The notes under the pieces are model-generated. The model made no database searches and was not told the DNA's origin. It saw only the letters and a list, made by a program, of their open reading frames with translations. The translations under genes were made by a program, and so were the position numbers. Positions 3,379 through 4,064 of a stretch of 15,810 bases of DNA are shown here, one piece after another (position 1 is the stretch's first letter; the number at the start of each line of letters is the position of its first letter). This stretch comes from Candidatus Avelusimicrobium ruminicola (GTDB taxonomy: Bacteria; Elusimicrobiota; Elusimicrobia; Elusimicrobiales; Elusimicrobiaceae): positions 1 to 15,810 of the forward strand of contig ONQH01000052.1 in NCBI GenBank assembly GCA_900319885.1. The letters are read 5' to 3'.

Positions 3379-3408
3379 TTGACACAAATTATAAATTTGT
3401 GATATACT
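3379..3408 (+). promoter_or_regulatory. Strong sigma70-type promoter with extended -10
   Basis: A consensus TTGACA -35 at 3379-3384, an 18-nt spacer and a TATACT -10 at 3403-3408 preceded by TGA, giving an extended -10. The predicted start of transcription is near 3415, which is also the A of an ATG. The spacer is filled by a perfect inverted repeat (separate entry), so the promoter is likely controlled by a dimeric regulator. Confidence 0.8.
3383..3401 (+). promoter_or_regulatory. Perfect palindromic operator inside the promoter spacer
   Basis: CACAAATTATAAATTTGTG is an inverted repeat with two 8-bp arms around a 3-nt centre. It lies between the -35 and -10 hexamers and overlaps the last two bases of the -35. 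A protein bound there would block RNA polymerase, so repression is the simplest reading. The cognate regulator is not in the window. I do not match the arms to a known operator with confidence. Confidence 0.65.
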
Positions 3409-3414
3409 AAACCT

Positions 3415-3513
3415 ATGCAAAATTTTAACGCTCGTAAACATAGTCTAATTATTAACTTCTTGTCCATTATTATGTGGCAAGAAGAAAACCCTGTTTGCGA
3501 GAGTGTTAAATAA
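3415..3513 (+). CDS. Possible leaderless 32-residue peptide
   Basis: An ATG at 3415 coincides with the predicted transcription start, so the mRNA would be leaderless, and it opens a 32-codon frame ending in TAA at 3511-3513. The peptide starts MQNFNARKH and has a short hydrophobic stretch LIINFLSIIMW in the middle and an acidic tail. I recognise no family. The same bases form the long rod of the candidate small RNA, which argues that the frame may be accidental. A small hydrophobic peptide of the type I toxin kind cannot be excluded. Confidence 0.2.
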   Translation: MQNFNARKHSLIINFLSIIMWQEENPVCESVK

Positions 3514-3548
3514 AAAATAAAAATTTGAATTTGCTGTAAAAAAACCAA

Positions 3549-3574
3549 CCTCGCAAAAAATGCGAGGTTTTTTT
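3549..3574 (+). terminator. Intrinsic terminator
   Basis: CCTCGCA (3549-3555) pairs perfectly with TGCGAGG (3561-3567) over an A5 loop and is followed by seven T. It ends the short transcript that begins near 3415. It could also work as an attenuator for the gene at 3603, which has no clear promoter of its own between this terminator and its ribosome site. Confidence 0.9.
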
Positions 3575-3602
3575 ATTAGATTAGTATAGGAGAAAACAAA
3601 AC

Positions 3603-4064
3603 ATGAAAAAATTAGTAATCACCCTCGCTGCCGTGGCCTTTGCCGCAGTGGCAGCCCAAGCCCAATCCGTTGGGGCCGAAGTACGTGTGGCAGATGCCGC
3701 CTGGAGAGGAACGCTTACTCCGCGTACCTTTGCCCAAAATAGAGTGCCTACCCAGAAACAGGCCACGGTAGAACAAAAAGTTACCAATAAAGTAGAACGG
3801 GCTGTAGTAAAGCAAGAGCAACAAAACAAAAACGCAAAAGCTCCCGCCAAAAAACCGGCCGCGAAAAAAGCGCCTGCTAAGCAAGCCCCCAAAACAAATA
3901 AAAAGGGAACAACTCCTAAAAAAAGAACTTCTCTAAAACAAAATGGCAGCGTGTCGGATTGGTTGATTGCTGCTATGGGTGGAAAATATCCCAATGAAAC
4001 GAGCGAAGAGTATCGTGCGCGTTTGTCTGTGCAATCGCAACCGTCCTCTCTGCCGTTCAAATAA
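3603..4064 (+). CDS. Exported Lys/Ala/Pro-rich small protein of unknown function
   Basis: A 153-residue protein that I do not assign to a family. A classical signal peptide is visible: MKK, a hydrophobic core at about 4-18 and an AQA cleavage site near residue 20. A mature N-terminal region with Gln-rich, charged sequence (about 21-77) is followed by a Lys/Ala/Pro-rich low-complexity segment (about 78-113) and a folded-looking C-terminus with DWLIAAMGG and ETSEEYRARLS (about 118-153). The basic repeat could contact nucleic acid, lipopolysaccharide or peptidoglycan, but that is a guess. AGGAG at 3588-3592 supports the ATG at 3603. Transcription may come through the upstream terminator or from an unseen promoter. 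A strong terminator follows at 4113. Confidence 0.75.
   Translation: MKKLVITLAAVAFAAVAAQAQSVGAEVRVADAAWRGTLTPRTFAQNRVPTQKQATVEQKVTNKVERAVVKQEQQNKNAKAPAKKPAAKKAPAKQAPKTNKKGTTPKKRTSLKQNGSVSDWLIAAMGGKYPNETSEEYRARLSVQSQPSSLPFK

Follow-up and report, generated by a model that had tools for sequence, protein, structure and literature searches.

A putative ribosome-dependent transcription attenuator with a leaderless leader ORF in Candidatus Avelusimicrobium ruminicola and relatives of its genus

We suggest that a short transcription unit in Candidatus Avelusimicrobium ruminicola is a ribosome-dependent transcription attenuator with a leaderless leader ORF, and that it controls genes for orphan secreted proteins; we consider this reading probable. 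The unit was found in positions 1 to 15,810 of contig ONQH01000052.1, a stretch of 15,810 nucleotides that is referred to as the window. The anatomy of the unit, its recurrence in relatives, its open reading frame and its covarying alternative pairings, all seen in the sequences, form the basis of this reading. Most likely it represents a known kind of switch in a new form that is specific to this lineage. Its parts in the window are:

3379..3408, + strand: promoter TTGACA-18-TATACT, 11 of 12 consensus positions, TG ahead of the -10; 6 nt from the end of the -10 to the ATG
3383..3401, + strand: dyad CACAAATTATAAATTTGTG in the promoter spacer, a possible operator (from the sequence and comparison by eye)
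3415..3513, + strand: predicted leaderless leader ORF of 32 codons, MQNFNARKHSLIINFLSIIMWQEENPVCESVK (open frame, recurrence in relatives)
3424..3440, + strand: region 1, the 5' strand of the rod (early codons), partner of region 2
3456..3484, + strand: apical hairpin capping the rod; in the clade alignment 66.7% of its cells are paired
3492..3510, + strand: region 2, the 3' strand of the rod (last codons), with the core TTTGCGAG at 3494-3501
3547..3574, + strand: intrinsic terminator T1, the 3:4 hairpin and a U-run, AACCTCGCA-AAAAA-TGCGAGGTT, -13.5 kcal/mol
3548..3557, + strand: region 3, the left arm of T1; alternative partners 3494-3501 and 3503-3504 (antiterminator, one bulged base)
3588..3593, + strand: Shine-Dalgarno-like AGGAGA of the next gene (from the sequence; similar in the units of relatives)
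3603..4064, + strand: candidate regulated gene, whose product of 153 aa begins in a signal-peptide-like way and has LPFK as its last residues
4113..4140, + strand: terminator T2, which closes the unit (a hairpin and T-run after the gene or T1 recurs in relatives)

The ATG at 3415 coincides with the expected transcription start, and the 32-codon ORF spans the rod. Positions 3379-3600 fold at -57.6 kcal/mol, compared with -29.92 +/- 3.75 kcal/mol for 200 dinucleotide shuffles (z -7.38, 0/200 as low). In the predicted rod, 3424-3440 pairs with 3492-3498 and 3501-3510. A near-consensus promoter, a strong terminator and a self-complementary transcript had been proposed in an earlier note on this DNA, and all three are borne out at the level of sequence and predicted folding; the internal bubble that it placed at 3441-3455 opposite 3485-3491 is about right, judged by the predicted rod pairs. 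We found no promoter-like site on the + strand between 3409 and 4281 of the window, and the 153-aa gene starts 28 nt after T1. By eye, the dyad CACAAATTATAAATTTGTG is similar across the window's clade and is not seen in other clades.

Forty-two diverged units sharing a promoter, an ATG near a -10-like box, a rod and T1 were collected. They come from 38 of the 66 genomes of the genus, a manual tally over several searches, and one weak outsider. At the DNA level 19 of 90 family genomes gave a match, in several cases across the whole unit, and 12 other loci repeat the ATG, an ORF of 32-36 codons, the rod and the terminator. A covariance model built from 12 units (R1) gave matches with E up to 0.1 in 18 of the 90 genomes, each a member of the genus, and a search with the downstream protein added the unit in G023. 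We also scanned 33 regions beside a gene that by its appearance we take to be squalene/phytoene synthase, present in 59/66 genus genomes, which gave 16 further diverged units, selected with an ORF filter of 15-60 codons; the region of G055 was left aside. A second model (R2), built from 11 of these 16, matched 21/90 family genomes at E up to 0.1. It added units in G028 and G046 (G046b), a second unit in G019, and a fourth kind of unit (G002, G064, G040b, G046c), which has no good -35 and precedes a different signal-peptide-like gene. Over 149 genomes of the order, R2 gave nothing beyond the genus at E up to 0.01, with the exception of the weak G068. Units can be missed because the first search stage scores only 21-37 candidates per genome. 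The models detect each other's units weakly (R2 on the window E 0.043; R1 on G023 0.0024 and on G001 0.0072), so that the case for homology between the kinds depends chiefly on their common architecture and spacing and in part on position. Since the promoter, rod and terminator recur in the same order in diverged relatives, the observation in the window goes beyond chance.

It should be noted that G068, which belongs to another genus, is weak and has no clear leaderless promoter, is included in the 42 units and also in the 41 units of the pairing, ribosome-position, T1-stability and shuffle analyses, from which G045, cut before T1, is excluded. Two copies in G062 (L037 and L039) are cut by contig ends and excluded from the 42 units, with G062 still counted among the 38 genomes; they share 99 identical bases and have different upstream genes, and the G045 copy also ends a contig. 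The R2 matches in G072 and G075 (E 0.036 and 0.02) were judged by eye to be chance and not counted. Locus L020 and the weak downstream-protein matches L057-L069 were inspected and dropped as unrelated. The pattern AAANGGGTACAA is present in 52/66 genomes of the genus, with 0-4 copies per genome over the whole set; in many the counts do not exceed those of a reversed control pattern, so it is not a large regulon motif.

The rod is supported by covariation. In the window's clade 81.0% of cells are paired compared with 75.1% in shuffles (0/500), and 12 pairs are changed on both sides compared with 6.7 (3/500). In the second clade the corresponding pairing is 88.5% compared with 85.7% (0/500), with 17 cells changed on both sides compared with 8.4 (0/500); two of its five measures, pairs changed on both sides (6 compared with 4.7, 127/500) and further pair types (24 compared with 25.9, 470/500), are not beyond the shuffles. 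Sliding the partner lowers pairing to 38-53% in the window's clade and gives 35-46% in the second, a comparison in which both structures are favoured because they were named from members of the alignments. RNAalifold, unaided, returned the outer and middle rod only, with 15 pairs, 7 of them with both sides changed. The stems are thus kept with compensatory changes in relatives of the same genus, which fits the earlier proposal of a new, lineage-specific regulatory RNA.

The leader ORF is open throughout the family. Over the first 25 codons frame 0 is free of stops in 42/42 units, compared with 1/42 for frame 1 and 6/42 for frame 2; as 16 units were selected by the ORF filter, the other 26 were also counted separately, and among these frames 0, 1 and 2 are open in 26, 1 and 6. 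The -10-like hexamer ends 6-8 nt ahead of the ATG in 41/42 units. A short predicted leader ORF that overlaps region 1 is therefore found in every unit, with leaderless spacing in all except one. A leaderless-promoter pattern has 22 matches in the own genome of the window, compared with 11 for its reversed control, and it precedes genes that look like ndk, msrA, xerC and a copper ATPase, names that we presume by eye. These sequence patterns suggest that the genome makes use of leaderless genes. Eight of the 22 strong matches were inspected, and none of these was accepted as a further unit. Promoter-like sites with a -10 located 5-8 nt before the ATG of ordinary-looking genes are seen at L172, L176, L178 and L182 of the same genome (G000), where leaderless mRNAs may be common.

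The end of the ORF is complementary to the T1 left arm, in many cases with a single base bulged out. Region 2 and the T1 arm change together between lineages. The cores of region 2 and T1 were named after inspection of the sequences: the window's clade has TGCGAG/CTCGCA and the second clade GCGGG/CCCGC, and further cores are GTGGG/CCCAC (G023), GCGGA/TCCGC (G035) and GGTGGG/CCCACC (G019b). The mean energy of the 2:3 duplex is -13.7 kcal/mol for own partners (41), -13.0 for partners exchanged within a core group (504) and -10.1 between groups (1136). Region 2 is the strongest partner of the T1 arm in the leader body in 40/41 units, G040 being the exception. When 10 representatives were cross-paired, the own partner was best in 7 rows and 6 columns. 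Against dinucleotide-shuffled leaders the 2:3 duplex passes 95% in 20/41 units and 99% in 9; for the window 1/200 shuffles is as strong, and most members of its clade are marginal. The 1:2, 2:3 and 3:4 pairings, which exclude one another, are predicted, with single elements often not beyond shuffles, and support for the putative antiterminator is carried by covariation between lineages and not by single elements. T1 (mean -17.7 kcal/mol) is more stable than 2:3 (mean -13.7), so antitermination would be kinetic. A kinetic choice between pairings also holds in other attenuators.

Based on these pairings we propose the following mechanism, for which we infer the transcription start, translation, readthrough and the cause of ribosome slowing. 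RNA polymerase would start at or beside the A of the ORF's ATG and produce a leaderless mRNA. Region 1 can pair with region 2 to form the rod, region 2 may instead pair with region 3 as the antiterminator, and region 3 may instead pair with region 4 as T1. Region 3 would be free when no ribosome is present (in the window), and likewise when a ribosome at the stop codon covers region 2; in both cases T1 would halt transcription. A ribosome lingering at about codons 2-11 would cover region 1 and leave region 2 to capture region 3; T1 would then form too late to prevent transcription of the downstream gene.

The effect of ribosome position on this choice is a computed one. We folded the leaders under the constraints that region 4 is not yet made and that a ribosome footprint, which reaches 12 nt upstream and 15 nt downstream from the first base of the P-site codon, is unpaired. 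The predicted probability of the antiterminator, as a mean of 41 units, is 0.69-0.82 with the ribosome at codons 1-8, 0.26-0.63 at codons 9-23 and at most 0.03 from codon 26. In the window's leader the value is 0.00 both when no ribosome is present and when one sits at the stop; over codons 2-11 it does not fall below 0.4, and its maximum is 0.83. With the ribosome at the stop it exceeds 0.05 in 5/41 units (0.07-0.34), with the highest value in G046c (0.34).

Among the points against the attenuator are that the downstream gene encodes an orphan secreted protein and not a biosynthesis enzyme, and that 19/42 units have no gene after T1. Genes follow in 21 units, and two units (G045, G068) were left undecided. 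The 21 consist of 16 in the window's clade, G023 and four with the other gene (read by eye), and the 19 are 16 plus three from the second-model set. In 16/16 examined units of the window's clade, T1 is followed at a distance of 25-43 nt by a gene whose small protein product has a signal-peptide-like start. The unit had been described as self-contained, a claim that we do not uphold, since a signal-peptide-like gene directly follows T1 in 17/42 units and the other such gene in four more; the 19 gene-less units speak the other way. A Pfam scan of four downstream proteins gave none that reached the cut-off. The family has a conserved start, an often conserved C-terminus and a varying middle. The protein of 3603-4064 belongs to an orphan family of secreted proteins in which this middle is rich in Lys and Ala and changes fast. 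A second copy of the gene, a paralogue without leader (L070), is found in G043.

In the gene-less units T1 is followed by a hairpin, usually by the motif AAACGGGTACAA, and then by T2. GGGTACA also follows the gene in 11 of the 16 units examined in the window's clade, whereas the window's own unit lacks it there. In several gene-less relatives (L105, L108, L114 and others) the T1-T2 segment holds a hairpin and AAAACGGGTACAAC without a stable reading frame, and this segment may be a small RNA of its own. A mini-ORF in the segment was rejected by eye, as its frame is not kept. Between T2 and the next leader these relatives have a recurrent GC-alternating stretch such as GTGCGCGCACGCGCGCGTACG. Locus L154 of G019 carries two tandem units, the first gene-less and the second gene-bearing, so both kinds coexist in one genome. 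The window's unit stands before an rRNA operon, and in several relatives the unit precedes, by eye, a similar leader sequence.

That so many units (19/42) are kept whole with no gene after T1 would also be expected if the unit were a free-standing regulatory small RNA of about 160 nt that ends at T1 and acts on other RNAs or on proteins, its ORF being incidental or dual-function and the next gene being reached by leaky readthrough. T1 is strong, the rod is conserved, and in Sinorhizobium meliloti the terminated trp leader acts in trans, as described in passages of PMC7298713. We nevertheless find this reading unlikely, since an untranslated RNA needs neither a frame that is open in 42/42 units nor an ATG 6-8 nt from a -10-like box in 41/42, and since the complementarity to its own terminator covaries.

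A different question is whether the peptide itself matters. Within each clade peptide similarity is recognisable, and the unit has a promoter and a terminator of its own, as would a gene for a small protein of 26-37 residues whose synthesis is all that the RNA structure regulates. The closing stem (85.6% of cells paired) and the start codon, which can pair with the segment directly before T1 in much of the window's clade, are in line with such regulation. Against this, 29 close pairs, which are not independent and in which RNA structure also restrains synonymous change, have 113 synonymous differences (102.5 expected) and 323 nonsynonymous ones (333.5 expected), a ratio of 0.88, and the differences at codon positions 1, 2 and 3 number 161, 118 and 157. 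By eye there is little likeness between the peptides of different clades; the pairing core of G038 is in another frame, and the ORF of G013 stops short of region 2. We regard a functional peptide as the product of the unit as quite improbable. The open frame together with this ratio indicates that the act of reading seems to be kept, with the peptide sequence hardly constrained. An outcome in which the frame alone was conserved, which would have spoken against a regulatory RNA, is not what we see, as the structure is conserved and the peptide nearly unconstrained.

No runs of one amino acid's codons were found in the leader ORFs. Asn, Gln, His and Thr are commoner in codons 2-12 than later, as a matter of composition, and regulatory codons of an amino acid type that matches the operon product are absent. 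With no codon run, the proposed attenuator is not a classical amino acid attenuator.

Without a ribosome the predicted probability of 2:3 has a mean of 0.26 and exceeds 0.7 in 8/41 elements (G001, G010, G059, G060, G046b, G002, G064, G068), of which five are gene-less and two gene-bearing, the eighth being G068. Untranslated leaders may therefore read through in some lineages. These elements, the lower means at codons 9-23 and the five units with residual antiterminator at the stop speak against the attenuator. As a rival reading, the terminator could be switched by a protein or small molecule binding the rod or bubble; the eight elements favour it, and the AU-rich bubble and apical loop are similar within clades. 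We judge such a switch very unlikely: apart from rRNA and tRNA nothing in the window matched Rfam at the gathering score, and binding of this sort leaves the conserved open leaderless frame unexplained. The unit itself gave sub-threshold Rfam matches only, the best being Arrc14 (28.7 bits, threshold 99) and Trp_leader (26.7, threshold 41), both of which overlap the terminator; we therefore rejected a known Rfam leader, riboswitch or small RNA.

A divergent 6S RNA mimicking an open promoter, as the earlier note had considered, is scarcely credible: the small, independent-looking transcript, the rod with a bubble and the slot left open by the 90 family genomes, none with a detected 6S, recall it, but a search with RF00013 gave no match in the window, in its own genome (83% complete) or in the 90 genomes, and the leaderless ORF (open in 42/42), the alternative pairing with the unit's own terminator and the strongly asymmetric bubble do not fit. 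Nor is 6S among the 31 Rfam matches at E up to 10. The RF00013 search used on the 90 genomes was positive in 5/14 control genomes, and weak matches could be lost in it because stricter filters were applied. In this family 6S RNA has either been lost or become too diverged for RF00013.

The attenuator that we favour resembles several known systems. In mycobacteria, leaderless cysteine-rich upstream ORFs act as attenuators. They likewise place a leaderless upstream ORF in control of a downstream gene; they differ in their runs of Cys codons, the window's ORF having one Cys and no run. The attenuators of the enterobacterial trp and his operons are ribosome-dependent. As outlined in parts of PMC7298713 and PMC9413887, they share a leader ORF and mutually exclusive antiterminator and terminator, and differ in having tandem regulatory codons and a biosynthetic operon. 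The closest precedent that we found, by analogy, is the trpLE(G) attenuator of S. meliloti (rnTrpL / peTrpL), whose RNA, according to passages of PMC7298713, begins with the ATG of the leader ORF. In that account it is likewise leaderless, makes a ribosome-dependent choice between antiterminator and terminator and releases the terminated leader RNA; its peptide has 14 aa with Trp codons and precedes a Trp biosynthesis gene. Here, in contrast, the ORF has 26-37 codons without a codon run, spans regions 1 and 2, and is followed by an orphan secreted-protein gene or none. Among the papers found on Elusimicrobia and 6S or small RNA, leaderless mRNA, or attenuation and leader peptides, we recognised no translation-coupled attenuator; PMC9413887, from the last of these groups, concerns HisR.

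If our reading holds, the units represent a translation-coupled attenuator family in a phylum with no recognised example in the literature covered, with a leader peptide that is nearly free to drift as frame, rod and terminator pairing are held. They also provide 42 natural variants for studying ribosome control of termination on leaderless mRNA, and a handle on the fast-evolving secreted proteins of Elusimicrobia. We further speculate, and hold it to be rather doubtful, that the units together form a family of translation sensors across the genus, in which a leaderless ORF begun directly at a 5' AUG gates readthrough into whatever follows. The output of gene-less units would then be a second small RNA (hairpin, AAACGGGTACAA motif, T2), and the sensor, located beside an rRNA operon in the window and several relatives, would report not on one amino acid but on slow initiation or early elongation.

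The unit is located downstream of mnmA in the window, G003 and G031, and upstream of mnmA in G056. The mnmA of the window is 96% identical to that of isolate RUG14410, and the closest records that carry a name are those of uncultured Elusimicrobium sp. and of Elusimicrobiaceae MAGs. The 5' UTR of mnmA carries GTCCTTTTGGCTTTCAACCTTAAGTACAA (2193-2221 of the window), which is kept in 12/12 relatives whose upstream DNA was compared, two of them with one substitution. Standing amid varying surroundings, it is a candidate conserved leader element.
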